A DNA stretch of 64,000 nt from Hankyongella ginsenosidimutans (GTDB taxonomy: Bacteria > Pseudomonadota > Alphaproteobacteria > Sphingomonadales > Sphingomonadaceae), in NCBI RefSeq assembly GCF_005144965.1, contig NZ_CP039704.1, forward strand, positions 930,001 through 994,000. Reading direction: 5' to 3'. This document shows positions 8,966 through 44,433 of this stretch, piece by piece. The notes under the pieces are model-generated. The model ran no database searches. It was given only the letters and a program-made list of their open reading frames with translations, and was not told where the DNA came from. How positions within the stretch are numbered: position 1 is the first letter of the stretch; each line of letters starts with the position of its first letter. A program made the position numbers and the translations under genes.

Positions 8966-9664
8966 ATGACCCAAAATATTGAACCCAACAGCGACGCAGC
9001 CGGAAGCGATACCATCGAACCTACGACACCAGTCCGTGCCGCCCAGACCAAATCTGCCATCGTCCAGAAACTGCTGTCCCGGAACAAGGGTGCAACGCTC
9101 GCCGAGATCATGGCGGCCACCTGCTGGCAACCGCACAGCACGAGGGCGTTTCTGACTGGCCTACGCAAGAAGGGCCGAGTTGCTGCGCGAGACGCGAAGC
9201 GGCGGCGAGACCAGTTGGCGGATGGAGCGCTGAGCATGGCCGCGCTTGCGGAGCAGATTGCCGGACTGGTGGAACTGCCGCCAGCCCGGCTGCGCGCCGA
9301 GTGGCGGCGGCTGCATCGTAGCCAGCCCATGCCCGAAGGTATGAGCAGTGATCTGCTGGCGCGGAGCATCGCTTGGGCGTTACAGGAGAAGGCGCTTGGC
9401 GGTCTGCCGCCTGCGCGTCGGCGCGAACTGGACCGGCTGGCCAGACAGCTTGCGGAAACGGGCGATCTGGACCTTGAACGCCAGCGCCAACTCAAAGCCG
9501 GCACACGGCTTGTGCGGCAATGGCACAGCAGGACCTATGTCGTGACCGTCCATGATCAGGGCTATGAGTTTGACGGGCGGCGCTATCCCTCGCTCACACC
9601 GATTGCCCGCGAGATCACCGGTGCGGCGTGGTCTGGTCCGCGCTTCTTTGGTCTTAGAGCCTGA
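8966..9664 (+). CDS. DUF3489 + DUF2924 proteins, apparently fused by a frameshift
   Basis: Residues about 28-70 (KSAIVQKLLSRNKGATLAE, TCWQPHSTRAFLTGLRKKG) are DUF3489, a small winged-helix-like domain. From SMAALAEQIAGLVELPPARL to the end is DUF2924 (LLARSIAWALQEKALGGLPP, RQWHSRTYVVTV, GPRFFGL). After RKKG the actual frame gives unfamiliar residues, while the next frame gives ELLRETRSGGETSW and a TGA at 9230-9232, a normal DUF3489 ending, with the DUF2924 ATG at 9236. A deleted base near 9,175 therefore joins two genes. The two families usually precede a large serine recombinase, as here. The final stop (9662-9664) lies inside palindrome C1. Confidence 0.8.
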   Translation: MTQNIEPNSDAAGSDTIEPTTPVRAAQTKSAIVQKLLSRNKGATLAEIMAATCWQPHSTRAFLTGLRKKGRVAARDAKRRRDQLADGALSMAALAEQIAGLVELPPARLRAEWRRLHRSQPMPEGMSSDLLARSIAWALQEKALGGLPPARRRELDRLARQLAETGDLDLERQRQLKAGTRLVRQWHSRTYVVTVHDQGYEFDGRRYPSLTPIAREITGAAWSGPRFFGLRA

Positions 9665-9715
9665 TCGGTTGAGGTTGAAGCATGTTGCTTCAACCGAGGG
9701 CGTGAATCAGGCTCT
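9656..9715. repeat. Palindromic element C1
   Basis: The outer stem AGAGCCTGAT/ATCAGGCTCT is 10 bp (9656-9665 with 9706-9715). The inner stem GGTTGAAGCA/TGCTTCAACC is 10 bp with a 3-base loop. The element supplies the stop codon of the DUF2924 frame. A near copy (C2) lies at 33185-33245. Confidence 0.85.
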
Positions 9716-9726
9716 TATCAACAATT

Positions 9727-9778
9727 TAGACCATGATTCACGTTTCAGAGCAATTCCATCTGAAACGATCATGGTCTA
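9727..9778. repeat. Palindromic element E1
   Basis: The outer stem TAGACCATGAT/ATCATGGTCTA is 11 bp and the inner stem CGTTTCAGA/TCTGAAACG is 9 bp, with a 3-base bulge and a 9-base loop. It sits 20 bases before the recombinase ATG. C1 plus E1 recur together, in the same order and spacing, at 33185-33308. Confidence 0.85.
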
Positions 9779-9798
9779 GGCCCAAAGGACCAAGAACG

Positions 9799-11338
9799 AT
9801 GACCCGCAAGACTGATCGCAGCACACTGCGCTGCGCCATCTATACGCGCAAATCAACCGAGGAAGGGCTGGAGCAGGCCTTCAACAGTCTTGATGCCCAG
9901 CGGGAGGCCTGTGCCGCCTATATCACGAGTCAGCGGCACGAAGGCTGGCGAATGGTTCCCGATCTCTATGACGATGGCGGCTATTCCGGCGGTAATATGG
10001 ACCGGCCGGGCCTTGTCCAGTTGCTCGAGGACGTGCGCGCGGGTAAGGTCGATGTCATCGTCGTCTATAAGGTCGACCGGCTGACTCGCAGCTTGGCCGA
10101 CTTCGCCAAGATCGTCGAGGTGCTCGACAAGCAGGGCGCCTCGTTCGTCAGCGTCACTCAGGCCTTCAATACCACCACCAGCATGGGGCCTCACCCTCAA
10201 TGTCCTGCTCTCCTTCGCCCAGTTCGAGCGCGAGGTGACGGGCGAGCGCATCCGCGACAAGATCGCCGCCTCCAAGGCCCGGGGCATGTGGATGGGCGGG
10301 GTCGTGCCGCTGGGTTACAAGGTCGAGGATCGCAAGCTGGTCGTCGTGCCTGAAGATGCCGAACGGGTGCGGCGGATCTACTGGCGTTATCTCGAACTTG
10401 GCTCGGTACTCGCGCTGGAAACCGAGCTTGCCGAGCAGGGCCTGCGCAGCCGCGTGCGCATCGGCCGCACCGGCAAGGAATATGGCGGCAAGCCGTTTAG
10501 CCGGGGCGCGCTCTATCTGATGCTTCGCAACCGCATCTATCTGGGAGAGGTTTGTCATAAGGGTAAAGTGTACCCTGGCGAGCATGGGGCGATCATCGAC
10601 GAGCCGCTATTCGCCCAGGTCGCGACGATGCTTGAACAGAATGGTATCGATCATGCCAATGCCGTTCACGCCGACCAGCCCAGCCTGCTCTGCGGTCTCG
10701 TCCGGGATAGCGAGGGCCGGCGCATGAAACCGGAACATGCAACCAAACGCGGCGGCATTCGCTACCGCTATTATGTTAGCAGCAAGGATAGCGGCGCCGG
10801 GACGAAAGGCGTGCGCGTTCCGGCAGGCGATCTGGAGGCCCTGGTTGTCGCGGCGCTCCGACGCGAAGGCCGCCTTCTGGAAACTCCGGATCGAACCTCA
10901 ATTGCCAATATTCTCAGTCAGGTCATCATCCATCGCGAAAGGGTTGAGCTTCTTCTGAGCCACCATGGCGACGCAGCGCCAATGGTGATCCAGGCCTCCT
11001 GATCCGGCGCGGCAAGGAAACGCGGCTTGTGGAGCCCGCCAGCGATCTCGTCGCGCCACGGCCAGACCCCGCGCTCATCAAACTGATCGTGAATGCGCAT
11101 CGGGTACGCACCGCGGTCTTCTCGGGGCAACATGGCACCGTCCGTCACGCCGCCGAGGCGCTCGGCTATCGGCAGGATTATTTCGCGGTCCTGCTGCGTC
11201 TCGGTTTTCTGGCGCGACATCGTCACCGCCATACTCGATGGCAGGCAGCCGCCCCAGCTTAACCGCCAACGTCTCGCGCGCGTCTCTGGGCTTCCAATCG
11301 ACTGGCGGGCACAACGCGAACTGCTCGGATTCGCTTGA
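9799..11338 (+). CDS. Large serine recombinase (frameshifted)
   Basis: The start at 9799 reads MTRKTDRSTLRCAIYTRKST, with the serine-recombinase catalytic region SLDAQREACAAYI, DDGGYSGGNMDRPGL, and VDVIVVYKVDRLTRSLADFA. A frame change near 10,190 leads to LSFAQFEREVTGERIRDKIA, then the recombinase domain with a resolvase-to-zinc-ribbon order (PLGYKVEDRKL, RNRIYLGEVCHKGK, LLCGLVRDSEGR). Further shifts near 10,990 and 11,215 lead to RPDPALIKLIVNAHR, ALGYRQDYFAVLLRLGFLA, and the end DGRQPPQLNRQRLARVSGLP plus LGFA, typical of alphaproteobacterial members of about 510 residues. It works with the DUF3489/DUF2924 pair as a module on integrated elements; its att site is not identified. Confidence 0.88.
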
Positions 11339-11360
11339 ATTTTCGATAGCTGCTCCATCG

Positions 11361-11381
11361 GATGCGCAACTGTTGCGCATC
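11361..11381 (+). terminator. Hairpin after the recombinase
   Basis: A perfect 9-bp stem GATGCGCAA/TTGCGCATC with a 3-base loop lies 22 bases after the recombinase stop. There is no T-run after it, so it is only a possible terminator. The rest of 11,382-11,566 shows no gene. Confidence 0.35.
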
Positions 11382-11566
11382 GCATCTCCCGACCGCCAAT
11401 TTGACGCTCACAGAAAATGCCGCGACCCAGCCCCTGAATCCCGCGCCAAATCAGTCTCCTGGACGGTGCTGCAGATGCTCTGCCTCGCGCAAACCCACGG
11501 AAAATCCGGCAGAACTTCCGACACGATGGATTCGATGTAACGTACTGTTTTAGAACGATAAAATAA

Positions 11567-11642
11567 TGGTGCCCAGGGACGGAATCGAACCGCCGACACA
11601 GGGATTTTCAATCCCTTGCTCTACCGACTGAGCTACCTGGGC
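11567..11642 (-). tRNA. tRNA-Phe (GAA)
   Basis: Read on the minus strand it is a 76-base cloverleaf with acceptor GCCCAGG/CCTGGGC, a D-arm TAGCTCAGTCGGTAGAGC, anticodon loop TGAAAAT (anticodon GAA), T-arm GGTTCGATTCC, and an encoded CCA. It marks the border between the accessory region to the left and core genes to the right, and is a plausible integration boundary. Confidence 0.95.
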
Positions 11643-11727
11643 CAACCGTGCCGGAGCATGGCCCGGCATTGCAGAGCGGCGGCTATATCGCCCCTCTTGC
11701 AGCTTGTCCAGCCCAAGCATCGCCAAG

Positions 11728-11904
11728 TCAGGCCGAGGGGTCCTCAAGCGTATCCTGCGGCGGGCCGGGCACGCGATACCCTTCGTTCAGCCAGTTGCGC
11801 AAATCCCGATCCTGACACAGGCGCGAACAGAAGGGCGCATGCGCGGGCGCGGCCGGCTTGTCGCACAGCGGGCAATGCTCAGGAGACTCAGCAGTATTCG
11901 ACAT
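11728..11904 (-). CDS. yacG: DNA gyrase inhibitor YacG
   Basis: The small zinc-binding protein has CPLC followed by CSRLC, the four-cysteine YacG site, then DLRNWLNEGYRVPG, the hallmark motif. YacG binds GyrB and blocks DNA binding by gyrase. The ATG at 11904 (MSNTAESPEHCPLC) overlaps the stop of the upstream RNase E/G-like gene; an in-frame ATG at 11916 is an alternative. It is intact, and the order infA-maf-RNase-yacG is standard in alphaproteobacteria. Confidence 0.92.
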   Translation of the reverse strand: MSNTAESPEHCPLCDKPAAPAHAPFCSRLCQDRDLRNWLNEGYRVPGPPQDTLEDPSA

Positions 11905-12865
11905 GAACATGCCCATAGCCGCTCATGGCCGACTCCGCCACGATGACAAGCGCAGCGCCCAGTCTTTGCGCGATCTCCGCCTGCAGCGCCTGCTGCACCT
12001 GGAGCCAGTGCGCGATGGCGGGCGGAGCGGTGATGGTGCGCACGCCGGCACCGATGCTGCGCTGCGCCTGCGCCAGCAGCTCCAGCGCCAGGGTGGCGGT
12101 ATCCGCGCCGTGCCGCCCGACGCCGCAACGGACGTCGAGCGCGCTCGGGCGCGGCCTCGCCCGCACCAGCTGCATGAGGCCGTAGCCGTTGACGGCCGTA
12201 TGCTCGCAGGGGCGTGGATCGTCGCGGACAGCGTCCAGCAGCACGTCCGTCACGGCCTGCCGGTCTGCCCGGCCGGTCATGGCGCGAAAGTCGATCAGCA
12301 CGCTGCCGCCGACCTGATACAGCCGCAGCAGCCGCGCGATCTCCGCCGCCGCCGCCTGATTGGTCTTGCGTGCGTCGTCGCCGCCGTCGACATCGATCAC
12401 CATTCCCCGCGCGTGCGCTCGAACGACAGGGCGAAGTCGCCGCAGGGGAATTCGCCGCAATCGGCCAGGTCCAGCGCGTCGTCGACGCCGTCCAGAGTCT
12501 GCCCCAGGCGAGGCCGGGGAAGCGCACCTCCAACGGCGGCCCGGGTGCAATCAGCCCGACGGAGCTTGCATGCCCCTCCACAAGCCGGGCGCGCGCCGGG
12601 CGCAACCGGCCGGGCTCGGGAATGGCAGCGCGCACGATTTCGGCCAGCACAAGCGTGCCTTCAGGGCAGGCGTGCGCCCGCTCCAGCGCTGTCGGTGCGC
12701 CGCCCCACTCCAGCATCGCCGCGACGCCGTCACGCCGCACCCGTCCGGCCAGTACCACCCCGGCTCCGGCCCGGCATCCGCACGCAGCAGGTGAATTTCC
12801 AGCAGACGACCATCGACGCCGTAGCCGCCGATGCGCACCTCCCCGGCCGGCGTTCGCCACGCCAG
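11888..12865 (-). CDS. Ribonuclease E/G-like protein (frameshifted)
   Basis: The frame joined from three segments begins near 12,850 (WRTPAGEV, then VRIGGYGVDGRLLEIHLLRA), continues through GTLVLAEIVRAAIPEPGRL, and ends with the RNase E/G-like catalytic-region remnant RGMVIDVDGGDDARKTN plus QVGGSVLIDFRAM. The short form (about 310 residues, no S1 domain) is common in this operon in alphaproteobacteria and is usually annotated as ribonuclease or RNase E/G family. Frame changes fall near 12,700 and 12,430. The true start is obscured by the overlap with the maf stop at 12,867. The last residues overlap yacG. Confidence 0.75.
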
Positions 12866-12866
12866 A

Positions 12867-13438
12867 TCATGGCAGGCCGCTGGCCGTCAGCAGTTGGCGC
12901 ACCTCATGGAGCGGCAGGCCGACGACCCCGCTGTACGAGCCGGAGAGGAAGCTGACGAAGGCGGCGGCACGGCCCTGAATGGCGTAACCGCCGGCCTTGC
13001 CGAGACCTTCCCCGCAGGCAACATAGGCCGCACGCTCGGCGTCACTCAGGCGTTTGAACTGCACGACCGTCGCGCTCAAGCGCTCGCGCAGGCGACCGCC
13101 GGCATCGACGACCGCGACCGCCGTATGCACCGTGTGCCGCCGGCCGGACAGCAACCGCAGGCACTGGTCCACCAGCTCCGGAGTCGTGGCGGCAGGCAGA
13201 ATGCGTCGACCACAGGCGACCGTCGTGTCCGCGGCCAGCAGCACCGAAGGCTGCGGCGCGCGCGCGGCTACCGCCTGCGCCTTCTCCCGTGCCATGCGCG
13301 TCACGTAGGCGCGCGGCAGCTCGCCGGAACGCGGTGTTTCGTCGATCTCGGGCGCAAGCAGAAGATCCGGCGTCACGCCCAGTTGCGCCAGCAGGTCGCG
13401 CCGACGCGGGGACGACGACGCCAGGACAAAACCGTCAT
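12867..13438 (-). CDS. maf: Maf-like nucleotide pyrophosphatase (start frameshifted)
   Basis: The conserved opening LASSSPRRRDLLAQLGV lies just before the long open frame and is out of frame with the ATG at 13438 by one base: the TTTTGTCC stretch lacks one G expected for VLVLASSS. The body has EIDETP, AREKAQAVA, VLLAADTTVACGRRIL and EGLGKAGGYAIQG, as in Maf house-cleaning enzymes, which hydrolyse modified or canonical nucleoside triphosphates such as dTTP and UTP. It lies 9 bases after infA and overlaps the RNase gene, so it is within the infA operon. Confidence 0.9.
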
Positions 13439-13446
13439 CGATCCGG

Positions 13447-13665
13447 CTATTTGAAGCGGTAGGTGACGCGACCCTTGGTCAGATCGTAGGGCGTAAGTTC
13501 CACCAGGACCTCATCGCCCACCAGCACGCGGATGCGGTTCTTGCGCATCTTGCCGGCGGTGTGGCCGAGGATTTCGTGATCGTTTTCCAGCTTCACCCGG
13601 AACATGGCGTTCGGCAACAGTTCCAGCACCCTGCCGCGCATCTCGATCAGTTCTTCCTTCGCCAT
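13447..13665 (-). CDS. infA: Translation initiation factor IF-1
   Basis: The 72-residue protein [20 protein letters not shown] ... [12 protein letters not shown] is an intact S1/OB-fold IF-1 with the characteristic [14 protein letters not shown]. It binds the A site of the 30S subunit during initiation. The open frame extends upstream to 13785, but the size and N-terminus of IF-1 fix the start at 13665. It is the first gene of the operon with maf, the RNase E/G-like gene and yacG. Confidence 0.97.
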
Positions 13666-13842
13666 TCGGACCCTTTTTGCGTCATGCAGAAGCCCAGCCA
13701 GAAACCGGCTGCGCAAGCGATGTGCGGTCATGGCGCAAGACTGCAGGAAATGCAAGCAGCTCCAGCATCCGTGCTCTTTCGGCATGGACGCTGGCGGCCC
13801 CGCACACTAGGTAACTCACCCGACATCACCCGGACCGCTGCC

Positions 13843-14534: not shown

Positions 14535-15819
14535 GACGACCGACCCGGATTTTGCACAGTCTTTGCGGCAATTGTGCAGGATCGCCGCGAGACGCCGGAC
14601 GATGTTGCAGACGTTGTGCGCAGCATTCTGGCCGATGTGCGAGCGCGCGGGGACGACGCCGTATTCGATTATACCGCGCGCTTCGATCGCATCGCGCTGT
14701 TGCCGGAGACCGTTCGGGTCAGCGATGCGGAGATTGCCGCCGCCGTCGATGCCTGCCCTGCTGACACGCGGGATGCGCTCGCCCTGGCGGCGGCGCGCAT
14801 TCGTGCGTTCCACAGCCAGCTGCGCCCTGGCGACCACGAGACGACCGACGACCTCGGGGTGCGCGCAGGCGTGCGCTGGACGCCGATTGAGGCGGTCGGC
14901 CTTTATGTGCCGGGCGGGCGCGCCGCCTATCCGTCCTCGGTGCTGATGAACGCCATCCCTGCCATCGTCGCCGGCGTCTCCCGGCTGGCGATGACCGTGC
15001 CCGCCCCCGACGGCGTGCTCAACCCGCTGGTCCTGGCAGCGGCGCAGTTGGCGGGAGTCCAGGAAATCTACCGGATCGGCGGCGCCAGGCGATTGCGGCA
15101 CTGGCGTTCGGCACCCGCACCATCCCGGCGGTCGACAAGATCGTCGGCCCCGGCAACGCCTATGTCGCGGAAGCCAAGCGCCAGGTGTTCGGCGTGGTCG
15201 GCATCGACATGGTGGCCGGCCCTCGGAAATTCTGGTGCTTGCCGATGCGCGCAACGACCCGGCGCACATCGCAGCCGACCTGCTGTCGCAGGCCGAGCAT
15301 GACCCGGTCGCACAGGCAATCCTTGTGACCGACGACGCTGGCTTCGGTCATGCGGTCATGGCGAAGGTCAAGGCTCACCTGGCGCGCTGGCCGGACGACA
15401 GCAGCGCGCGCCAAAGCTGGGAGCGTTATGGCGTCGTGATCGTAGTCAGGAACCTTGCCGAGGCGGTTCCGCTGATCGATGCGCTGGCGGCCGAGCATCT
15501 GGAACTCGCCATTGCAGAGCCTGAGGAATTGCGCCTGCAGATTCGCCACGCCGGCTCCATCTTCCTCGGGCGGCATACGCCGGAGGCTATCGGCGACTAT
15601 CTCGGTGGCCCGAACCATGTGCTGCCGACCGGCCGCCGGGCGCGGTTCGCCTCCGGCCTCTCGGTGAGCGATTTCATGAAGCGCACCACCTACCTGGAAT
15701 GCCCGCCCGCGGCACTGGCAACGCTGGGGCCGGCAACCGTGACGCTGGCGCAAGCCGAAGGCCTGCCTGCGCATGCGCTCTCGGTTAGCTTGCGGCGGAA
15801 CAGCGTGCTTCCGGATTAG
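14518..15819 (+). CDS. hisD: Histidinol dehydrogenase (three frameshifts)
   Basis: HisD oxidises L-histidinol to histidine with two NAD+. A GTG start at 14518 overlaps the hisG end. Frame changes occur near 14,565, near 15,085 (GGCGCCAGGCG lacks a C for [10 protein letters not shown]) and near 15,220 (GGCCCTCGG lacks a C for [10 protein letters not shown]). Across them run [52 protein letters not shown], and GGPNHVLPT, the full set of HisD signatures. All residues expected in the zinc and substrate site region appear present, so the gene is probably functional in the organism. Confidence 0.94.
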
Positions 15820-15823
15820 AACG

Positions 15824-15980
15824 TGATGACTTTAGGTGGAATCGTCATTGCGAGGAGCCGCAGGCGACGTGGCAATCCAGAGTTCTTTGTTTTGCACTAT
15901 GGATCGCCATCCCGGCTTTCGCCGGGACAGGCCCAGCTTTGCTGCCTCGCGATGACGTGTGGTTCAACCTAAAGTCATCA
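15824..15980. repeat. Long inverted repeat enclosing a GTCATTGCGAGG REP sequence
   Basis: An 18-base arm TGATGACTTTAGGTGGAA pairs, with one mismatch, with TTCAACCTAAAGTCATCA at 15963-15980. Inside are the common bacterial repeat CGTCATTGCGAGGAGC and a partner CCTCGCGATGACG. The right half (GTCAACCTAAAGTCATCA) recurs at 33463-33480, and related pieces lie at 28,440-28,500. Confidence 0.75.
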
Positions 15981-16043
15981 TACTTTAGACCATCATCGGC
16001 GCAAAAGCTTCAACCGTAGCCAATCTGGCTCTCACTCTTTGTG

Positions 16044-16107
16044 TAGACCCTGCTTGTCCGTTTTGATTGCCTCGCAAAAGTGATTCAATCAAAACGGGAA
16101 GGGTCTA
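16044..16107. repeat. Palindromic element D1
   Basis: The inner stem CCGTTTTGATTG/CAATCAAAACGG is 12 bp with a 16-base loop; the outer stem pairs AGACCCT with AGGGTCT. The reverse complement occurs at 28221-28283 (D2). Upstream, 15,981-16,043 holds degenerate bits of other elements (TAGACCAT, GCTTCAACC, GGCTCTCAC). Confidence 0.82.
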
Positions 16108-16123
16108 AGGACCAGAAACGGTG

Positions 16124-16198
16124 GGGCCTGTAGCTCAAGGGTAGAGCTGGCCGCTCATAACGGCTTGGTTGCGGGTTCGAATCCTGCCGGGCCCACCA
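16124..16198 (+). tRNA. tRNA with CAU anticodon, probably tRNA-Ile2
   Basis: The acceptor GGGCCTG pairs with CGGGCCC, the anticodon loop is CTCATAA, the T-arm GGGTTCGAATCC, and CCA is encoded. The overall sequence resembles alphaproteobacterial tRNA-Ile(CAU), whose C34 is modified to lysidine by TilS, more than elongator or initiator tRNA-Met. The D-loop looks one or two bases short, perhaps another deletion error. Confidence 0.85.
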
Positions 16199-16222
16199 GC
16201 CTCGCGCCGCTGCCCGCCAACG

Positions 16223-19369: not shown

Positions 19370-19463
19370 CGCACAAGAGCCCGATCTGTTGAGGCAGCAA
19401 GCACGGTTGCTTCAACCGATGGCGTGAATCAGGTTCTTTTCAACGAATGAGACCAGGCGTTGG
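19370..19463 (+). repeat. Left copy of a 94-bp direct repeat (contains element C3)
   Basis: It matches 26182-26275 at 90 of 94 positions by eye, in the same orientation, both copies starting CGCACAAGAGCC and ending CCAGGCGTTGG. Inside, 19376-19437 is a palindromic C-type element: AGAGCCCGAT against ATCAGGTTCT outside, GTTGA-AGCAA/TTGCTTCAAC inside. The halogenase stop and last 12 or so codons lie in it. Confidence 0.85.
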
Positions 19464-20994
19464 CGCTGCGATACGAGTGAGCGGCAGGCAAGTGCAGGCG
19501 TCGCGGTTCAGGCTGCGGCGCCTGCACATATTGGTTCAGGAAATCCTGGTGCGCCGGCATCGTCTCCACGATGTCGGCGATGGCGCGCCGCATGTTCCCA
19601 AGCGCCTGCGCCAGCCGTTCCGGCCCCATGATGCGCGCCATGTGATGATAAGCCTGCGGCTCCAGCCGCTGGCCAAGCATCACCTGCAGCCAGGAACTGA
19701 CGCGAAACAGGTCGTCGCCCGCCTGGTAGGCGAGTGCCGCCTCCCGGAACAGGGCGATCCGCTCCTGCAGGCTTTCCGGCGGCGGCGTCTCCCGGCAGGC
19801 GCGCCAGAACGGGTCCGGTCGCTCGTTCAGGTGATAGTGCAGCACGATGAAGTCCCGTACCCGCTCCAGTTCATTGCGCGCCTGTTCGTTGTAGCGCTGG
19901 ACGATGGAGGGCTGGATACCGGCGAACGGAAACACCTGCATCAGGCGGCTGAGGCCGATCATGGTCAGGTGGATGGTCGTCGACTCCAGCGGTTCGACGA
20001 AGCCGCTTGCAAAGCTCAAGGCAATGCAGTTGCGTTCCCAGACGCGGTCGCGCCGCCCGGTCTGGAAGCGGATCAACCGCGGTTCGATCAGGGTCTCGCC
20101 TTCCACCGCCGCGAGCAGGCGCTCCCGTGCCGCATCGTCGGACAGATGCCGGCTGCTGTAGACCAGACCGTTGCCATCCCGGTGCTGCAACGGAATGCGC
20201 CAGCGCCAGCCGGCATCGTGCGCGATGGCGCGGGTGTAGGGCGGTGCCGGGGCCGTCGTCGCGGTCTGGACGGCAAGCGCCCGGTCGGCCGGCAGCCAGT
20301 GCGTCCAGTCTTCGTAGCCGACGCCGAGGGTCTGCGCGATCAGCAGGCTGCGAAAGCCCGTGCAGTCGAGAAACAGGTCGCCCGCGACCCGCGCGCCGTT
20401 GTCCAGCCGCAGCGCTGCGATATCGCCGGTCTGGCCGTCGCGCTCGACATCGACGATCCGCCCCTCGACCCGGCGCAGGCCGTCCGCCTCCGCGCGGCGG
20501 CGCAGATATCTGGCATAGCGCCCGGCGTCGAGGTGAAAGGCGTAGCTGATCTCGCCTTCGCTCGGGATGGCAAAACACCCCTTCTCAGCCGCTGCATGCT
20601 CAAGGCAGTAGTCGCCGATAGGATCGGCAATACCCTGCGCACGCGCCTCCAGCCAGAAATGCTGGAAGTCGCCCATCCAGGTCGAGCGGCCGACCTCGCC
20701 GAACGAGTGGATGTAGCGGTCACCCTCGCGTGCCCAGTTCTCGAAAGAGATGCCCAGCTTGAAGGTCGCCAAGGTCTCGCGCATGAACTCGCGCTCGTCG
20801 AGACCCAGGATCGCATGGAACGCCCGGATGGTCGGGATCGTCGCCTCGCCGACGCCGACCGTGCCGATCTCCTCGGACTCGACCAGCGTCAGATCCAGCA
20901 TCTGCCCGAGCTGCCGGCTGAGCGCTGCCGCTGCAAGCCAGCCTGCGGTACCGCCGCCGGCGATGACAACCCGTCTGATCCGCTGTTCCGCCAT
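19429..20994 (-). CDS. FAD-dependent tryptophan halogenase family protein
   Basis: Intact, 521 residues. The N-terminus VVIAGGGTAGWLAAAALSRQ is the FAD-binding GxGxxG site; VGVGEATIPTIRAFH follows; ATFKLGISFENW contains the lysine aligned with the catalytic Lys of PrnA/RebH; and GWRWRIPLQHR is the WxWxIP signature. This predicts FADH2-dependent halogenation of an indole-like substrate, with reductase supplied elsewhere. However, in TonB-receptor/SapC loci of this kind the true substrate is unknown. The last residues (RSANAWSHSLKRT) are encoded by the 94-bp repeat, so the native C-terminus may have been replaced. The order downstream of SapC and the cupin protein suggests one operon from 22.7 kb. 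Confidence 0.92.
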   Translation of the reverse strand: MAEQRIRRVVIAGGGTAGWLAAAALSRQLGQMLDLTLVESEEIGTVGVGEATIPTIRAFHAILGLDEREFMRETLATFKLGISFENWAREGDRYIHSFGEVGRSTWMGDFQHFWLEARAQGIADPIGDYCLEHAAAEKGCFAIPSEGEISYAFHLDAGRYARYLRRRAEADGLRRVEGRIVDVERDGQTGDIAALRLDNGARVAGDLFLDCTGFRSLLIAQTLGVGYEDWTHWLPADRALAVQTATTAPAPPYTRAIAHDAGWRWRIPLQHRDGNGLVYSSRHLSDDAARERLLAAVEGETLIEPRLIRFQTGRRDRVWERNCIALSFASGFVEPLESTTIHLTMIGLSRLMQVFPFAGIQPSIVQRYNEQARNELERVRDFIVLHYHLNERPDPFWRACRETPPPESLQERIALFREAALAYQAGDDLFRVSSWLQVMLGQRLEPQAYHHMARIMGPERLAQALGNMRRAIADIVETMPAHQDFLNQYVQAPQPEPRRLHLPAAHSYRSANAWSHSLKRT

Positions 20995-25945: not shown

Positions 25946-26181
25946 ATTCCGCTGAATTCGTGTCAAATGGATGGATAAATTTGATATAAAATTCGCAGCC
26001 GCTCAGTTCTCGTTTGCAGGACAATCATACGGCGGATGGCTTCGGCGAGAAATATAATCCATATTTTCCAGATATTTATCAAAGATTATGCAAAATTGCC
26101 ACACTCGCCGGAGAACGGGTTTTGCAGATGCGAGAGCAGGCACCGGAATGTCTCTGCGTGTGCGCTCCCATTTCTGCCCCG

Positions 26182-26275
26182 CGCACAAGAGCCTGATCGG
26201 TTGAGGCAGCAAGCACGATTGCTTCAACCGATGGCGCGAATCAGGTTCTTTTCAACGAATGAGACCAGGCGTTGG
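26182..26275 (+). repeat. Right copy of the 94-bp direct repeat (contains element C4)
   Basis: It differs from 19370-19463 at four positions (T/C, G/T, A/G, C/T in order). Element C4 spans 26188-26249. The copies bracket the 6.7-kb halogenase, cupin, SapC and receptor cluster. Confidence 0.85.
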
Positions 26276-26378
26276 TGCAGGACGCTAAACCGCCCTCTTT
26301 TCCTCAAATCCGCATGGCGATCCAAGCACCGTTGTGATATTGTGTTATACATCGGCAATACACATGGGGAGTAAAACC

Positions 26379-28014: not shown

Positions 28015-28220
28015 GACATGGTCTCCTTCAGCGTTGATGCCCTGATATAGCCACCCGGCGCCTGAACCGTTCCTGAACCGGCCCGGCACAGCAGACAACG
28101 ACAAAGCTCCTGAAAACGTCGACAAAGCGCGCAGCAAGAGGAAAGAATCCTTTTGCATCGTGCGCGCCGTTGCCTCGCGCCCCAATGTTGAATCACCATC
28201 ATACAAACAGCGGTAGCGCC

Positions 28221-28283
28221 AGACCCTTCCGTTTTTGATTGGATCACTTTTGGTGAGGCAATCAAAACGGACAAGAAGGGTCT
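28221..28283. repeat. Palindromic element D2
   Basis: The outer stem AGACCCTT/AAGGGTCT is 8 bp; the inner stem CCGTTTTTGATTG/CAATCAAAACGG is 12 bp with one bulged T. It is the reverse complement of D1 at 16044-16107, flanks included. Confidence 0.82.
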
Positions 28284-28294
28284 ACACAAAGTGT

Positions 28295-28364
28295 GAGCCT
28301 TTCTTATCGCCTTTGCTTGAGGCACTTGTATTAAAGTGCCTCAAGCTCAGTCGGAAAGGCTCTA
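28295..28364. repeat. Palindromic element A2, with a partial H-type arm after it
   Basis: The outer stem GAGCCTTTC/GAAAGGCTC is 9 bp; the inner stem CTTGAGGCACTT/AAGTGCCTCAAG is 12 bp with a 6-base loop. It is inverted relative to A1 (33108-33177), including the unpaired segments. From 28,366 to 28,388 AGCATCCCACCTTAAATGCGAC copies the left arm of element H (44,274). Then comes TAGTGTC, as in F and G. Confidence 0.85.
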
Positions 28365-28514
28365 AAGCATCCCACCTTAAATGCGACCCAGGACGGGGAT
28401 CGGGTAGTGTCTCAATTTGAAATCATACCGCTCACCCTGAATAGGACGAAAGGATGAGCGGTGCGTGCGCAGCCTCGCGATGACAGCTGTGCTGCAATCC
28501 AAACAGGACGGACT

Positions 28515-33072: not shown

Positions 33073-33107
33073 AGCACATGCGCTTCAGCCTCAACCGACC
33101 AGACTCT
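33068..33107. repeat. Partial C-type palindrome over the UPF0262 stop
   Basis: GGCTGAAGC ... GCTTCAGCC form a 9-bp stem with a 6-base loop, followed by TCAACCGACCAGACTCT, the reverse of the C2 left arm. Only half the element remains. Confidence 0.7.
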
Positions 33108-33177
33108 AGAGCCTTTCCGACGGAGATTGAGGCACTTGTGTTAAAGTGCCTCAAGCGAAAGCGGCAACAAAGGCTCT
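33108..33177. repeat. Palindromic element A1
   Basis: The outer stem AGAGCCTTT/AAAGGCTCT is 9 bp, the inner stem TTGAGGCACTT/AAGTGCCTCAA 11 bp, the loop GTGTTA. The unpaired 10-14 base segments between the stems are also shared with A2. Confidence 0.87.
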
Positions 33178-33184
33178 CCCTCTT

Positions 33185-33245
33185 AGAGCCTGGTCGGTTG
33201 AGGTTGAAGCATATGTGCTGCAACCGAGGGCGTGAATCAGGCTCT
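33185..33245. repeat. Palindromic element C2
   Basis: AGAGCCTGGT pairs with ATCAGGCTCT and GGTTGAAGCA with TGCTGCAACC, one mismatch in the inner stem. It differs from C1 at a few bases, mainly in the inner loop. Confidence 0.85.
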
Positions 33246-33256
33246 TATCAACAATT

Positions 33257-33308
33257 TAGACCATGATTCACGTTTCAGATCGATTCAATCTGAAACGATC
33301 AAGGTCTA
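33257..33308. repeat. Palindromic element E2
   Basis: TAGACCATGAT pairs with ATCAAGGTCTA (one mismatch) and CGTTTCAGA-type arms follow. The 11-base spacer from C2 (TATCAACAATT) is the same as between C1 and E1. Confidence 0.85.
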
Positions 33309-33500
33309 GAGTCTGCTGACATTGGATGGGATCGCCATTCCGATCTTCGCTGGAGCAGGCTGTAAAGTCCGCTCGTGGTGAGCCTGGACGAACCACGAGC
33401 CGCTCAGCCCTTCGTCCAGCTCAGGGTGAGCGGCGCGTGTGCAACCGCGCGATGGCGTGTGGGTCAACCTAAAGTCATCAGGCTCTAATGGGTCCTGACC
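33309..33500. repeat. Degenerate REP-type repeat region
   Basis: GCCGCTCAGCCCTTCGTCC and CAGGGTGAGCGG form an imperfect hairpin, and GTCAACCTAAAGTCATCA at 33463-33480 copies the right arm of the 15,824 repeat. No gene. TCTAATGGGTCCTGACCCTA at 33484-33503, covering the zapE stop, recurs in altered form at 34,866-34,886. Confidence 0.6.
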
Positions 33501-34655
33501 CTAGCCGGCGCAGTGCCCCTTGGCCAGATAGTCCACCGACTGCATTTCATACAGACGCGAGGCCGTCCGCTCGAACTCGAAACTGCCGTCGCCCGCAACA
33601 TACAAGGCATCCGGCGCTGCATCGGCCGCACACAGCAGCTTGACGCAATGCTCGTACAACACGTCGATCAAGGTGACGAACCGCTTGGCCTGATTGCGCA
33701 GTTCCGCGCCCATGACCGGGATGCCAACGATGATGACCGTGTGGAAGCGGCGCGCCACCACGAGGTAGTCCGCCGCACCCAGCGGATTGTCGCACAACCG
33801 CCGGAACGAAAACACCGCGACACCCTTCAGCGCCTTCGGCACGAACAGATCACGTCCATCGACATCCAGGGTCTCGCTGGGAACATTGGCGCGGTCCTCG
33901 ACCGGGAAGTCGGTCAGGCGAAAGAACGCCTCTGACAAGGCGGCCGTCGCCTCCGGGCCGTTCGGGCTGTAATAGACCGGCATGCCGGACAGGCGGGCCA
34001 GGCGATAGTCGGTCGCACCGTTGAGCGGCAGGACGGCCAGATGATCCTTGAGCAGGGCGATCGCCGGGAGAAACAGCTCCCGGTTCAGGCCGTTCCTGTA
34101 CAGGTCGTCCGGCGCGCGATTGGAGGTCGCGACGATGGTGACGCCTTCGTCCAGCAAGGTGCGGAACAGCCGCCCCAGGATCATGGCGTCGGCGACGTCA
34201 GTGACCTGAAGCTCGTCAAAGCACAGCAGCCGCGCTTTCGATGCCAGCGCCCGGGCGACCGGCGGGATGGGATCGTCGCCCGCATCCCGGCCATAGCGCT
34301 GCGCACGTGCGGCGGCGGTCATGGCCCGGTAGGCGTGGATCGCCGCATGTACTTCCAGCATGAAGGCATGGAAATGCACCCGCCGCTTGTTGGAGACGCG
34401 GGCGTGATGGAAAAACAGGTCCATCAGCATGGACTTGCCGCGCCCAACCCCGCCCCACATGTAAAGCCCCTTCGGCGCGGGCGGCTGCGCGCGGCTGAAG
34501 AAGCGCTTGAGCGCGTTGGCGGATTGGGTGCGGCTCGCCTCCAGCGCCGAGGCCAGGCCGTCCAGTCGCGTGGCGGCCAGTTCCTGGTCCGGGTCTGTGC
34601 GGAGCTGGCCAGTCTCGCGCAGTGCGCGGTAGGCGGGAAGAACGGCGCCGGTCAT
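33501..34655 (-). CDS. zapE: Cell division ATPase ZapE (AFG1-like)
   Basis: Intact, 384 residues. Walker A is GGVGRGKSMLMDLF and Walker B ARLLCFDELQVTD; VHFHAFMLEVH, ATSNRAPDDLYRNGL and FPVEDRANVPSETL-like segments are standard for the AFG1/ZapE family. ZapE stimulates Z-ring constriction in gammaproteobacteria; alphaproteobacterial relatives may act as mitochondrial Lace1-like quality-control ATPases. The TAG stop lies in a short repeated motif shared with 34,866-34,886. Confidence 0.92.
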   Translation of the reverse strand: MTGAVLPAYRALRETGQLRTDPDQELAATRLDGLASALEASRTQSANALKRFFSRAQPPAPKGLYMWGGVGRGKSMLMDLFFHHARVSNKRRVHFHAFMLEVHAAIHAYRAMTAAARAQRYGRDAGDDPIPPVARALASKARLLCFDELQVTDVADAMILGRLFRTLLDEGVTIVATSNRAPDDLYRNGLNRELFLPAIALLKDHLAVLPLNGATDYRLARLSGMPVYYSPNGPEATAALSEAFFRLTDFPVEDRANVPSETLDVDGRDLFVPKALKGVAVFSFRRLCDNPLGAADYLVVARRFHTVIIVGIPVMGAELRNQAKRFVTLIDVLYEHCVKLLCAADAAPDALYVAGDGSFEFERTASRLYEMQSVDYLAKGHCAG

Positions 34656-34705
34656 ATAGTCGTGGGTTAATCGAGCATCGCCCCGTTACAAGCCGCGCGC
34701 TGACC

Positions 34706-34782
34706 TAGTGTCGTGGAATCGAAGTTCGCTACACCATGATATCGAGCTCGTGCGCGAACTTCGATTCCTGAAACGACACGAG
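34706..34782. repeat. Palindromic element F
   Basis: The outer stem GTGTCGT/ACGACAC is 7 bp and the inner stem GGAATCGAAGTTCGC/GCGAACTTCGATTCC 15 bp, loop about 24 bases. Confidence 0.85.
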
Positions 34783-34796
34783 AAACAATATCTTGC

Positions 34797-34870
34797 TAGT
34801 GTCCTTCTCGAATCTGAAATCCAACCGCGCCTGATATTGGGTGTAACGGATTTCAGATTCGGGACACTAG
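34797..34870. repeat. Palindromic element G
   Basis: AGTGTCC pairs with GGACACT, CGAATCTGAAATCC with GGATTTCAGATTCG (14 bp), loop about 25 bases. It shares TAGTGTC ends with F, 14 bases away. Confidence 0.85.
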
Positions 34871-34880
34871 GTCAGGACTC

Positions 34881-34947
34881 ATTAGACCATGATTCACGCC
34901 CTCGGTTGCAGCACATATGCTTCAATCTCAGTCGGAAAGGCTCTATG
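34881..34947. repeat. Mosaic palindromic element
   Basis: It begins as E (TAGACCATGATTCACG), continues as reversed C2 (CCCTCGGTTGCAGCACATA) and ends as reversed A (CTCAGTCGGAAAGGCTCTA). It cannot fold as a full element. Its end supplies the stop of the GGDEF gene. Confidence 0.8.
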
Positions 34948-37246: not shown

Positions 37247-37256
37247 GGTGTCCTCC

Positions 37257-38262: not shown

Positions 38263-38263
38263 G

Positions 38264-40529: not shown

Positions 40530-40557
40530 GTAAATCCTCCCGATGATTCTTATGCTA

Positions 40558-41406
40558 TCAGATATGAATACGGCGGTCGCCCGGCACCTGCGCATCCGGC
40601 GCGTAGCCCGGCTCGTCGCGGTATTGCCGGTACAGCGCGGCGAAATCCGTAGTCCGCAGCGCATCGAAGAGCTGCGCCGTGCCGTCGATGACGAAATAGG
40701 TCTTCTGGAAGCTGTCGATCATGTAGTTCGTGCGCATGACCCGCTCCACATCGAACGCGACCCGCTGGGGCGTCTGGCTCTGGATGCAGTAGACCGTCTC
40801 GCCCGCCGAGGAGAGAATGCCGGCACCGTAGCTGCGCAGGCCTTCGTTCGTCCGGATCAACCCGAACTCGACCGTATACCAGTAAAGCCGCGCCAGCATC
40901 TTCAGGGCGCCCAGCGCCAGCGCCTGCTCGCCAAGCCGGCCGTAAAGCTGCAGGAAGTCCGCAAATACCGGGTCGGTCAACATCGGCACATGGCCGAAGA
41001 AATCATGGAACACGTCCGGCTCGACCAGGTAGTCGATCTCCTCCGGCATGCGCAGCCAGCGCGTCACCGGGAAGCGGCGCGCCGCCAGGTGGCTGAAGAA
41101 TACATCATCGGGGATGAAACCGGGCACGGCGACCAGGGTCCAGCCGGTCTTGCCGGAGAGACGACGGCTGGCGGCGGCAAAGTCCGGGATGCCGTCACCG
41201 GCATCAAGCAGCGCCAGCCCGGCGCGGAACTCGGCGCTGGCATAATCCTGCATCAAGGCGCTCTGGCGGGTGTAGAGCGTGCGCCACAGCGCATGCTCCT
41301 CGGGCGTGTAATCCTTAAGGCGCTGGTCGACCACATAGTCCGGCCCTGCGCCAGCGTAGTCGCCGCGCAAGCCGCTGGTGGAGGTCTCGACCTGAGGCTT
41401 CTGCAT
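40558..41406 (-). CDS. phhA: Phenylalanine 4-monooxygenase
   Basis: Intact, 282 residues. [14 protein letters not shown] gives the two iron histidines and [10 protein letters not shown] the iron Glu; [13 protein letters not shown] and [15 protein letters not shown] are pterin-hydroxylase signatures. It makes tyrosine from phenylalanine with tetrahydropterin. GGGAG stands eight bases before the ATG at 41406. It is the promoter-proximal gene of the block and diverges from an Lrp-type regulator. Confidence 0.97.
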
Positions 41407-41524
41407 GCAATTCTCCCTTATACGCTCAATAGCATATTCCACCCTTGATGTGCGTGCGAAAATCGCCAAGAGTTACGTCGAAATAAGCGAATTTCACTAA
41501 AATAACCTGAGAAATTAGCGTATT
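41407..41524. promoter_or_regulatory. Divergent promoter region between phhA and the Lrp-type gene
   Basis: The 118-bp gap is clearly more AT-rich than its surroundings, with AATAGCATATTCC and ATTTCACTAAAATAACC, as expected for two face-to-face promoters. Lrp/AsnC regulators usually bind such regions; no exact operator can be fixed by eye. Confidence 0.55.
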
Positions 41525-42010
41525 ATGGCTGAACTAGACGAGTTTGACCGCAATATCCTCGCCCTGCTGCAAGAGGATGCACGCATGCCGGTTGCGACCA
41601 TCGCCGACCGCATTGCCTTGTCCGCCACGCCGTGCAGCCGGCGGATCAAGCGGCTGGAGGAGACCGGTGTGATCGAAGGGTATGGCGCACGGCTCAACGC
41701 CCGTGCGCTGGGCTTCGGGCTGGAGGCATTCGTCGAGGTGAACCTGGAAGCGCATACCGATGCCAACACCGCGCGCTTTCATGAAACCATTAGCGCCATG
41801 CCCAACGTCATGGCCTGCCACGCGGTCACCGGCGACATGGATTATCTGCTGCACATTCTCGCCGAAGACGTCGACCATCTCAGCCAGGTCGTGCTGAAGA
41901 CCCTGGTGCGCATTCCCGGCGTGCGTGACGTGAAATCGATGCTGGTTCTGGAGACAGTGAAGAAATCGCACCGCACGCCGATCCGCGATCAGGGTGACGG
42001 GCGCTGGCGC
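41525..42010 (+). CDS. Lrp/AsnC family regulator (3' end unclear)
   Basis: MAELDEFDRNILALLQEDAR and IADRIALSATPCSRRIKRL form the N-terminal winged helix; the RAM ligand-binding domain runs to VRDVKSMLVLETVKKSHRTP at about residue 150. Such regulators sense amino acids; divergence from phhA suggests control of phenylalanine/tyrosine breakdown. The open frame continues without a stop through the next gene's start to 42,121, which looks like a lost stop or a missing base near 41,985-42,010, so the end given is approximate. Confidence 0.88.
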
Positions 42011-42028
42011 GCATCCTATATCAGTACC

Positions 42029-42420
42029 ATGAGAAAGCTGCTCTGCCTTGCTCCCTGGTTCTGGCCGCCTGTGCGGAGGCCGACGAGCCGCCGAACAGTC
42101 GCGGCCTCTCCGAGGCGCTAAGCCGTGCGGAGGTCAGCTTCTCGGTCGACGGCGAATTCGCGCAGAGCCGGAAGATCGACGTGCCGGCCAACGCTGCCAC
42201 CCGGGAAATCCGGGGTACCGGCTGCACCAAGGTGAAGCCGTACGTCTACACCTGCGCCTTCACGCTGATCCTCTACGATCCGGCGGACGCCGCCAGCGGC
42301 GAGGGCATTCTCGCCGCCGGGACCGGCCAGTTCCAGAAAGTCGGCACGACCTGGAAGGGCCTGCAGACCGAATACAAGCTGCAACTGAAGAGCCGGATCA
42401 TCCAGGTGCCGGCGCAGTAA
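42029..42420 (+). CDS. Small lipoprotein of unknown function (one frameshift)
   Basis: MRKLLCLA begins a signal peptide; after a frame change near 42,052 it continues VLAACAEADEPPNSRGLSEA, where LAAC is a lipobox. The mature part (VSFSVDGEFAQSRKIDVPAN, GCTKVKPYVYTCAFTLILYD, GTTWKGLQTEYKLQLKSR) has two cysteines and a beta-rich look. About 130 residues; no family recognised. It probably sits in the inner or outer membrane facing the periplasm. Confidence 0.65.
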
Positions 42421-42467
42421 AGCCGCGCGGGACTTTACCCGGCCGGGAAATCGATTATGCGTCAGAC

Positions 42468-43140
42468 ATGACGTGGCGCCTGCACCAGTTTCCCTCTGCC
42501 CCTTCTCGCGCAAAGTACGCCTTGTGCTGGCGGAAAAGAACATCTCCGCCGAGCTCGCGCTTGATTACCCGTGGGAACAGAAGGACAGCTTCCTGGCATT
42601 GAACCCGGCCGGGCAGACGCCGGTACTGGTCGAGACCAGCCGCAATATCGCCCTGCCAGACTCGGCGGCGATCATCGAGTTTCTCGACGAGATGTTCGAG
42701 GAATCGCCGCTGATCGGCTCCGCCCGCGCGAGCGCGCCGAGGTGCGCCGGATTGCCGCCTGGTTCGACACCAAATTCTACGCCGAAGTCGGCATCCCGGT
42801 CATGCGGGAGCGCATGCTGAACCGGCTGGTGCACAAGGCGCCGCCGGACCCCGCGACCCTGCGCCAGGCCATCAAGACCGCAGACCAGCACCTGGATTAC
42901 CTCGCCTTCCTGCTGGACCACCGGCGCTGGCTGGCCGGCAACATGTTCTCGCTCGCGGATATCGCAGCGGCGGCGCATCTGTCGGTCATCGATTATCTGG
43001 GCGGCATCGACTGGCGACCGCACGAGCAGGTGAAGCAGTGGTATTCGGCCATCAAGTCGCGCCCGAGCTTCCGGCCGCTTCTGGCCGAGCGGATGCCCGG
43101 CATTTCCCCGCCGGCCCACTATGACGCCCTCGATTTCTAG
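42468..43140 (+). CDS. Glutathione S-transferase family protein (frameshifted)
   Basis: The start at 42468 (MTWRLHQF) shifts frame at once to LCPFSRKVRLVLAEKNISAE, the GST active-site strand-helix, then NPAGQTPVLVET and LPDSAAIIEFLDEM. A second shift near 42,722 leads to RIAAWFDTKFYAEVG and NMFSLADIAAAAHLSVIDYL. Its end overlaps the queG start at 43121. Role unknown. Confidence 0.85.
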
Positions 43141-44310
43141 GGACTGGCTGGAGGACGCCGCCCGCCGCCACGGCCTCGACGCGCTTGGGGTGGCACCGGC
43201 CGATGATGACCCGGCCCTGAAAGCGCGACTGGCGGAATTTCTGGCGGCTGGCCATCACGGCGACATGCTCTGGCTGGAGGGCCGCACCGAGGAACGCGCA
43301 AGCCCGCGCACCCTGTGGCCGGATGTGCGCTCCGTCATCATGTTTGGCATGAGTTACGCGCCGCATCTTGACCCCTGCGCCATGCCGCGCAGCCGGAGGT
43401 CGGCGTCATCTCGGTCTATGCGCAGGGCCAGGATTATCACGATGCGTTCAAGCGCCGCCTGAAGGCGCTGGCGCGGGAAATCGTGGCGCCTTCGGCGGCG
43501 ACGTGAAGGTGTTCGTCGACACCGCCCCGGTGATGGAAAAGCCGCTGGCGGCACGCGCCGGGCTCGGCTGGCAAGGCAAGCACACCAACCTGGTGTCGCG
43601 CCAGCATGGATCGTGGCTGTTTCTGGGCGCGATCTACACGACTCTGGCGCTTAAGCCCGACTCGCCTCACCCGGACCGCTGCGGCCGCTGCACGGCCTGC
43701 CAGACCGCATGCCCGACGAACGCCTTCCCCGCGCCCTACACGCTTGATGCCCGGCGCTGCATTTCCTACCTCACCATCGAGCACAAGGGGCCGATCCCGC
43801 ACGAATTTCGCGCTGCGATCGGCAACCGCGTCTACGGCTGCGATGACTGCCTGGCGGTCTGCCCCTGGAACAAATTCGCGCTGGCCAGCCGCGAGGCCGC
43901 GTTTGCGCCGCGCGCCGAACTGACCGCCCCGCTGCTCGCCGACCTGCTGGCGCTTGACGATGCGACGTTCCGGACCATTTTCGCCGGCTCGCCGATCAAG
44001 CGCACCGGCCGGGATCGGTTCCTGCGCAACGTGCTGATTGCCGCCGGCAACAGCGCCGATCCGCTGCTCGCGCCACCCGTCATGCGGTTGCTGAACGACC
44101 CTGCCCCTGGTGCGCGGCGCGGCGGTCTGGGCGGCAAGCCGACTGCTTGACCGGGACGCTTTCGAGGCGCTGGCAGCGCGCCATCTGCCACGAGAGGCCG
44201 ACGAAACGGTCCGTCACGAATGGGCGATGACTGCGTACTGGAATATTCGGTCGCAATCGGCGCAGACTGCGCTAGCATCTCCCCTTAAATGCGACTTGAG
44301 GCTGGGATAG
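43121..44310 (+). CDS. queG: Epoxyqueuosine reductase (frameshifted; end in a repeat)
   Basis: QueG reduces epoxyqueuosine to queuosine in tRNA with cobalamin and two [4Fe-4S] clusters. [25 protein letters not shown], then (after shifts near 43,380 and 43,490) [38 protein letters not shown] and [15 protein letters not shown] carry the cluster cysteines. A shift near 44,105 leads to [20 protein letters not shown] and [12 protein letters not shown]. The frame then runs into palindrome H and stops in its loop (44308-44310), so the last dozen residues come from the repeat. Confidence 0.92.
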
Positions 44311-44345
44311 AGCGCAGCGTCGCGTTTAAGGGGAAAAGATGCTTT
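44273..44345. repeat. Palindromic element H
   Basis: The outer stem AGCATCT/AGATGCT is 7 bp; the inner stem CCCCTTAAATGCGAC/GTCGCGTTTAAGGGG is 15 bp with one G-T pair; loop 23 bases. A lone left arm occurs at 28,366. Confidence 0.85.
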
Positions 44346-44359
44346 AGATTCTAGGTACA

Positions 44360-44433
44360 TAGAGCAACTTTAGACTTTAAATCTGCTATGAGCATGCCAT
44401 CAGCCTGTTGCAGATTTAAAGTCCGTTGCTCTA
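44360..44433. repeat. Palindromic element I
   Basis: AGAGCAAC pairs with GTTGCTCT (8 bp) and GACTTTAAATCTGC with GCAGATTTAAAGTC (14 bp), loop 23 bases. It lies 38 bases before the tkt start. Confidence 0.87.

Follow-up and report, generated by a model that had tools for sequence, protein, structure and literature searches.

Paired-hairpin repeats with TA ends in Hankyongella ginsenosidimutans, probable miniature elements of IS630 transposons

Composite elements in the window and their families

The window analyzed here is a stretch of 64,000 nucleotides (bases 930001–994000) of the one-contig genome of Hankyongella ginsenosidimutans (2,880,809 bases). It carries a series of short palindromic elements, which a preliminary description had listed as separate double-stem hairpins sharing a plan but not a sequence. 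The stems that it gave as examples were found where it had placed them, CCGTTTTGATTG at 16044–16107 (and also in one arm of 28221–28283), GACTTTAAATCTGC at 44360–44433 and GGAATCGAAGTTCGC at 34705–34782. Most of the hairpins, however, turned out to be the two halves of one composite element, and the set extends beyond the range first described, to a partial element of family K at 60761–60832 (forward strand; hairpin 1 at 60763–60806).

Complete composites lie at 9654–9780 (family A, forward strand; hairpin 1 at 9656–9715, a linker, hairpin 2 at 9727–9778, TA at both ends), at 28219–28364 (family C, reverse strand; hairpins at 28221–28283 and 28295–28362), at 34705–34870 (family G, forward strand; hairpin 1 at 34705–34782, hairpin 2 at 34796–34870) and at 44273–44433 (family E, forward strand; hairpins at 44274–44343 and 44360–44433). 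These four fold cleanly, and in all of them one arm of each hairpin exceeds the other in length, with the excess facing the centre of the element, on the 3' arm in hairpin 1 and on the 5' arm in hairpin 2. Thus, the inner arm of hairpin 2 is longer by three nucleotides (TCA) in the A element at 9654, and the inner arm of each hairpin is longer by four in the G element. Another complete A element at 33184–33309 (forward strand) adjoins C and P pieces at a shared TA; here hairpin 2 alone folded on its own, with the offset in the same sense as in the cleanly folding composites.

The remaining elements are partial, decayed or of another build. A partial C element occupies 16003–16107 (forward strand; hairpin 2 at 16044–16107), and a C hairpin 1 at 33106–33178 (forward strand) is flanked by A-type pieces. 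Two decayed A-type elements, assigned to seed group D1, lie at 19370–19465 and 26175–26278, both on the forward strand. An E fragment at 28362–28417 (forward strand) has its TA in common with the C element, and is followed by a Q fragment with a TAGTGTCTCA end and a REP-like core at 28404–28468 (reverse strand). P elements were found at 15817–15987 and 33305–33491, both on the forward strand; the former has long end repeats around a REP-like core, and its fold showed no double-hairpin plan.

We scanned the window together with 40 evenly spaced 20-kb stretches of the genome (864 kb; L-numbers label stretches and loci), accepting an outer stem of at least 7 bp, an inner stem of at least 9 bp, a bulge of at most 12 nt and a loop of at most 45 nt. 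This plan scan returned 66 hairpins, against 6 in one first-order Markov control. With at least 18 paired bases there were 49 double-stem palindromes against none in one Markov control, which confirms that the palindromes are real. One stretch (L064) was dropped as a repeat of the contig start, and all 49 remained in the resulting 844 kb. L064 is 99.5% identical to the contig start (L026) over the 19 kb compared, and the contig end is perhaps a copy of the contig start, with about 72 kb of circular overlap left untrimmed. A long tandem array with a period of about 36 bp was also seen (L040:4070–4852). The internal bulge of the preliminary description is present but not random, since in 42 of the 49 hairpins the left and right sides differ by exactly 3 or 4 nt.

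Copies were counted for the most part with single-seed searches, because an iterated C profile merged with A. These searches found 156 loci in the 844 kb, spread over ten seed groups that include Q and P, and the repeats are indeed dispersed. The double-hairpin plan is present in, or gave rise to, seed groups A, C, D1, E, G and K; in Q, Q2 and P a REP-like core is enclosed by long terminal repeats, and N is a different repeat. Q and P outnumber all other seed groups in the sample, and their core is a REP-like palindrome, CGAGCCGCTCA...TCAGGGTGAGCGG, seen for instance within 33305–33491 and 28404–28468 of the window. The paired elements measure about 100–180 bp and are mostly TA-ended; they are short and dispersed in many copies, as are miniature inverted-repeat transposable elements (MITEs) of the IS630 type. 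Family A is represented genome-wide by 62 matching pieces at 42 places, two of which belong to the repeated contig end, and 20 of the 62 pieces are the reverse reading of a hairpin. A plan without a common sequence describes these elements only in part: within families the sequence is shared, and most outer arms start with TAG(A/T)(G/C)(C/T), unlike the outer arm of E hairpin 1, which starts with TAAAGC.

The offset between the arms recurs in the aligned copies (35 of A, 13 of G, 14 of K, 5 of E and 6 of C). In hairpin 2 of A the three additional nucleotides are present on one arm only in 28 of the 35 copies (+3/0), on neither arm in 6 (0/0) and on both in 1 (+3/+3). The inner arm of G is longer by 4 or 3 nt in hairpin 1 of all 13 copies and by 4 nt in hairpin 2 of 10 of the 13, and, scored by motif, the offset was also found in hairpin 2 of C (5/6), hairpin 2 of E (5/5) and hairpin 1 of K (14/14).

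Several smaller pieces accompany these families. Short elements that seem to mix A and C arms, or arms of A hairpins 1 and 2, occur in the window at 34884–34945 (reverse strand; TA-ended and chimeric in appearance, with a C-like end and A-like arms) and at L039:9195–9256 and L044:4470–4529; further mixed-arm elements are found at L061:9195–9255 and L045:2734–2799. Their composition suggests that they may have arisen by recombination between elements. A TA-flanked hairpin of about 33 bp, GGGTCAGGACTCA...GGCCTGACCC, lies inside an E hairpin (L029, around 2490–2545), and shorter TAGGGTCAGGACTCATTA-like pieces lie between elements in the window (34868–34890 and 33488–33510). These are perhaps another mini-element.

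TA joints and the ends of IS630 transposons

TA ends are preserved in most full-length copies of A, C, E and K, usually in the context C/TTAG or CTAG/A. Twenty joints were found at which elements of different seed groups lie at most 6 bp apart, and 17 of these joints have TA, while random placement gave a mean of 0.285 joints and a maximum of 2 (200 runs). At L045:9252–9355 a K element is nested in the loop of a C hairpin with the TA doubled, and removal of K together with one TA makes the C sequence continuous. This single nested case and the 17 of 20 TA joints point to duplication of a TA target, as in IS630-type MITEs.

Candidate partners are present in the same genome. IS630-1 exists in three copies that are 99.6–99.7% identical over 1.04 kb, IS630-2 is also present, and the frames of both match DDE_3. 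Two of these transposons abut miniature elements at a terminal TA, one IS630-1 copy with a K hairpin and IS630-2 with an A element, and an IS630 remnant adjoins an A element. When 15 MITE ends were compared, the K ends were the best matches to both IS630-1 ends and the A ends to both IS630-2 ends. Directly next to an IS630-1 copy in L048 lies one copy of a 1.24-kb repeat, whose two copies (L038:15251–16484 and L048:746–1980) are 99% identical. Homologous transposases (E ≤ 1e-40) were found in 33 of 296 genomes of the order, the own genome counted. A named genome collection gave them in 337 of 357 candidate stretches, from which 80 loci were kept, mostly of Sphingobium, Novosphingobium and Sphingomonas. 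TA-flanked end repeats could be located in 60 of 109 IS630 loci.

In a register test, arms cut from single copies were compared without gaps over 26 nt with 124 IS630 ends, with 744 TAGA sites of relatives as the background (the p floor of 0.004 corresponds to three sites scoring at least 22). The outer arms of seven of the ten hairpins (A1, A2, C1, C2, K1, K2 and E2) matched at 18–22 of 26 positions (p 0.004–0.008), and the inner arms of all ten at 11–14 (p 0.16–0.75). The right end of E gave p 0.005 and its left end p 0.07, and the P ends gave p 0.008 and 0.002 with gapped scoring only. Judged against the 124-end library, IS630-like terminal inverted repeats (TIRs) are thus a property of A, C and K and were not found in G and Q.

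The inner arms are nevertheless recognizable as transposon ends over their first positions. In eight hairpins of A, C, K and E, positions 1–9 match alike in outer (6–9/9) and inner arms (7–9/9), a comparison made with representative arms that did not all come from one copy and with the K1 inner arm altered at two letters toward the match. A gap of 2–7 nt raised the inner arms to at least 16/26 in six of seven cases, with the place and size of the gap optimized and two arms misframed by one base. Because positions 1–9 match and a gap restores the score, the inner arm appears to be the same end out of phase. Mariner-type transposases bind bipartite end sites, and for this reason we infer that the offset disables the inner arm as a transposon end, by analogy with those enzymes.

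We consider it very probable that the elements are MITEs of IS630 transposons, which belong to the Tc1/mariner superfamily; A, C and K are most likely IS630-type MITEs and not REP/BIME elements, and E and P are probably IS630-type MITEs as well. A transposase of IS630 elements, supplied in trans, would cut at the outer arms. Each hairpin would be an inverted duplicate of one transposon end, born most simply by template switching during replication. An insertion of 3–5 nt in the inner arm (in K hairpin 2 a deletion), between a terminal part of 9–10 bp and an inner part of about 14 bp, would put the two halves of the bipartite transposase site out of phase, and the outer arms alone would then work as ends. 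The diversity of stems would follow from the families carrying ends of different IS630 lineages, and the complementarity of the arms may be kept by template-switch correction, by selection on the hairpin or by both.

A number of observations weigh against this explanation. The outer arms of G1 and G2 scored 12 and 13/26 (p 0.55 and 0.32), no better than the background, that of E1 scored 15/26 (p 0.07), and the Q ends match no IS630 end (p 0.55; Q2 0.21). Each arm was scored by the best of 124 ends, although the background was treated alike, and the library of IS630 ends was preset to a leading G, TA flanks and a length of 1030–1075 bp. Some copies lack TA at one end or both, among them about half of the G copies, the other half having kept it, and the evidence from an empty site is the one nested insertion. 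In hairpin 2 of K it is mostly the outer arm that carries the extra 4 nt, with one of the 14 copies flipped, so that an offset facing the centre is not universal; the K inner arm is still out of register despite the extra bases on the outer arm. Hairpins without a partner (41 of 177 full hairpins, several with a decayed partner) occur both without an offset (two C2 copies) and with one (K1 at L060 and others), and this mixture does not clearly bear out the prediction that a hairpin moves alone only if it is free of the offset. G is a TA-ended element of the same plan and Q an element of similar ends, neither of which we file as an IS630 MITE because no parent was found. An IS5-type parent was also considered for G and Q; PF01609 gave five genome matches, two pairs of which reflect the repeated contig end.

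Arm pairing, other genomes and competing explanations

The preliminary description had proposed that the arms vary while remaining complementary, and compensating changes are indeed present. Within families, double changes were seen in 5 of 25 predicted pairs in A, 8 of 50 in G, 4 of 27 in K and 8 of 55 in E. Homology searches in other genomes, for which two or three candidates per genome were scored, gave a G match in 15 and a K match in 17 of 295 genomes, most of the G matches being pieces of 20–37 bp, with full-length G matches limited to two genomes and full-length K matches to one. The G elements in two other genomes of the order (72% and 70% identity) have kept the TA ends, both hairpins and the 4-nt offsets. 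In the joint G alignment, double changes affect 15 of 50 pairs, compared with 6.6 after shuffling, and 92.8% of cells are paired, compared with 22–43% when the alignment is slid. Drawing the structure from one of the aligned sequences biases the count of paired cells in its favour, and the genome's own copies are related.

A plan scan of 20 kb from each of 19 relatives found five double stems, none with a 3–4 nt difference, and a search of 58 relatives for family A gave no match. An exact 23-mer of A had no match in the named genome collection or in viral contigs, the stretch of C, A and P was not found in plasmids and G was not found in plasmids or phages, all in collections that may omit the host's own records. 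In four 50-kb stretches of S. meliloti pSymB, self-comparison revealed a repeat, about 120 bp long, that has TAGAG and TAGATCACG at its ends and two hairpins, whose inner arms are, by eye, about 4 and 3 nt longer. The plan scan did not flag this repeat (it flagged two other hairpins). It occurs at 27 places in NC_003078 and has matches in 173 plasmid records, 170 of them from Sinorhizobium, Ensifer or Rhizobium; we take it to be RIME (Rhizobium-specific intergenic mosaic element). Compared with 12 rhizobial IS630 ends, its outer ends scored 15 and 16/26 (p 0.012 and 0.002) and its inner ends 14/26 (p 0.04, with three letters prefixed) and 11/26 (p 0.40). On these sequence scores the left side hardly separates outer from inner, and the case appears weaker than for A, C and K.

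What keeps the arms paired bears directly on whether the hairpins have a function of their own. If transposon ends had been inversely duplicated by template switching and their pairing were maintained by its correction alone, the hairpins would need no function, and we regard this as a serious possibility, if somewhat short of an even one. According to the passages of PMC8794818 on hairpins, template switching both creates and maintains them, and the two states of A hairpin 2 fit such arm-to-arm correction because template switching expects variants with the offset absent from both arms (6/35) or present in both (1/35); the single flipped K copy among 14 is of the same kind. The 28 of 35 A copies that retain an offset which correction would erase speak against it, although recent copying of one master would explain them too, and the recurrence of the plan in several families and in Sinorhizobium suggests some use. 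Selection and mutation are indistinguishable here as the keeper of the pairing. Covariation within families and between genomes, together with the intergenic positions given in the preliminary description, would also suit small RNAs, terminators or hairpins that stabilize mRNA, which would have been retained for their role as structured RNA, with the spread being secondary. We think this improbable, as the pair of hairpins is nearly symmetric on both strands and has transposon ends and TA joints; the structured RNAs that had been suggested also found no counterpart in Rfam, where the window matched no family but tRNAs at gathering thresholds.

Readings that rely on other recombinases fare worse. 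The elements had been likened to REP/BIME elements, and they do resemble REPIN doublets in having paired, inversely oriented hairpins with an asymmetric bulge, such as would be moved as single-stranded hairpins by a RAYT (Y1) transposase. However, the absence of a RAYT noted for the window extends to the whole genome, where PF01797 had no match (in an assembly 86.66% complete), while the same search gave matches in Caulobacter and E. coli. With units of about 100–180 bp, TA ends with IS630-like repeats in most families and TA duplicated in the nested case, the comparison with REP/BIME is not supported, and movement by a RAYT is very unlikely. Integron attC sites are double stems with bases unpaired on one side and free sequence. 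The elements share these features, but the ends of most families match the ends of DDE transposons and the joints are at TA (integrase genes were not searched), which leaves sites of a structure-reading tyrosine recombinase as the least plausible origin of all. The description as small mobile palindromes, by contrast, agrees with the dispersed copies, the TA joints and the arms that change together across genomes.

Related repeats and GANTC sites in IS630 ends

The preliminary description knew of no family with such a range of stems. The range is there, since several families carry ends like those of different IS630 lineages, but two-armed, TA-ended repeats with GANTC are known as CIR (CcrM-associated intergenic repeats of Caulobacter, also found in Brucella), which the sections of a 2007 review on them describe as intergenic, about 110 bp long and TA-terminated, with two long inverted repeats as arms, a linker and GANTC at or in the terminal loop (PMC2229807). 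Those sections list no TIR and call for more information on mobility (PMC2229807). The elements described here likewise have two long inverted repeats, a linker and TA termini. In family A, GANTC occurs in the loop region of hairpin 2 in 25 of 35 copies. The elements differ from CIR, as far as its published description goes, in that end repeats and candidate IS630 partners have been identified. RUP of Streptococcus pneumoniae is likewise an IS630-linked MITE with a TA target, about 107 bp long and with TIRs like those of IS630-Spn1 (PMC2229807, PMC3049150), but RUP is one family, and the accounts of it in these two sources mention no paired hairpins with offset inner arms. The present elements may be said, by analogy, to join a CIR-like anatomy to a RUP-like movement. 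They share with REP/BIME and REPIN the dispersed, paired palindromes, and differ from them in size, ends, joints and the lack of a detected RAYT.

RIME and Bru-RS are further alphaproteobacterial paired-hairpin repeats. RIME, if the pSymB repeat is indeed RIME, resembles the present elements in its two hairpins, TAGAG/TAGATCACG ends and longer inner arms, and differs in sequence. Bru-RS is listed as an intergenic repeat of 103–105 bp (PMC2267715), and the main text of a 2024 review of MITEs treats CIR as strictly intergenic and does not bring in IS630 (PMC10969869).

GANTC is the site of CcrM, and it was also found in the IS630 ends themselves. End structures were resolved for 65 of 121 alphaproteobacterial IS630 loci (L088–L116, L136–L215 and L225–L243), and 61 of the 65 have GANTC at positions 21–25 of exactly one end, with none in 4 and no case of both. 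Counted as 52 distinct elements, 49 have it at one end, 3 at none and 0 at both; the elements are related, and the counts are not independent. Of the 59 elements of the first set of 60 that could be oriented, 56 have the GANTC end upstream of the transposase and none has it downstream, the upstream motif being GAATC in 41, GACTC in 9 and GAGTC in 6. The opposite end mostly has GGNTC or GAAGC. Nine of 18 alphaproteobacterial plasmid loci gave ends starting with GAG/GCG, and all nine have GANTC at position 21 in the upstream end only; these ends were judged by eye after viewing, five are also among the 65, and the other nine loci were not resolved. In a control of six non-alphaproteobacterial plasmid loci, the three with clear ends (Nostoc, Piscirickettsia and Acidovorax) had no GANTC, a weak control given their distance in sequence. 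We found no published report of GANTC at one end of IS630 in a search at the level of titles and abstracts that left most subscription journals outside.

The elements carry the same asymmetry in part. A and C have GAATC at position 21 of the right end, with GAAGC and GAGGC in their left ends, and the K copy used has GANTC at 21 in both ends. The genome sample has 1.56 GANTC sites per kb, whereas the density is 19.4 in G, 18.6 in A, 12.4 in K, 5.6 in C and 4.8 in E, and 8 of 14 K copies have the site in the region of hairpin 2. The host has one RAMA-domain frame (PF18755), which we read as a putative CcrM; among 14 control genomes only Caulobacter matches this domain, as do 56 of 60 genomes of the order. 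It is possible, if less likely than not, that GANTC at the end upstream of the transposase lets transposition or transcription of the transposase follow the cell cycle via CcrM (perhaps with GcrA), that A-like MITEs, and perhaps CIR and RIME, are derivatives of these transposons that sowed such sites over alphaproteobacterial chromosomes, and that out-of-register inner arms keep the element whole.

One genome thus holds five double-hairpin families beside IS630 transposons, and the transposon ends match several of these families. In addition to the TA joints there is a common rule across families, an inner arm out of register by 3–5 nt. These results raise the questions of whether the host IS630 transposase cuts the outer but not the inner arms and whether CcrM methylation of one end controls IS630. 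Paired-hairpin repeats were already known in alphaproteobacteria in the form of CIR, and the link to IS630 bears on the question of their mobility; it suggests an origin for alphaproteobacterial paired-hairpin repeats whose movement had been unexplained.

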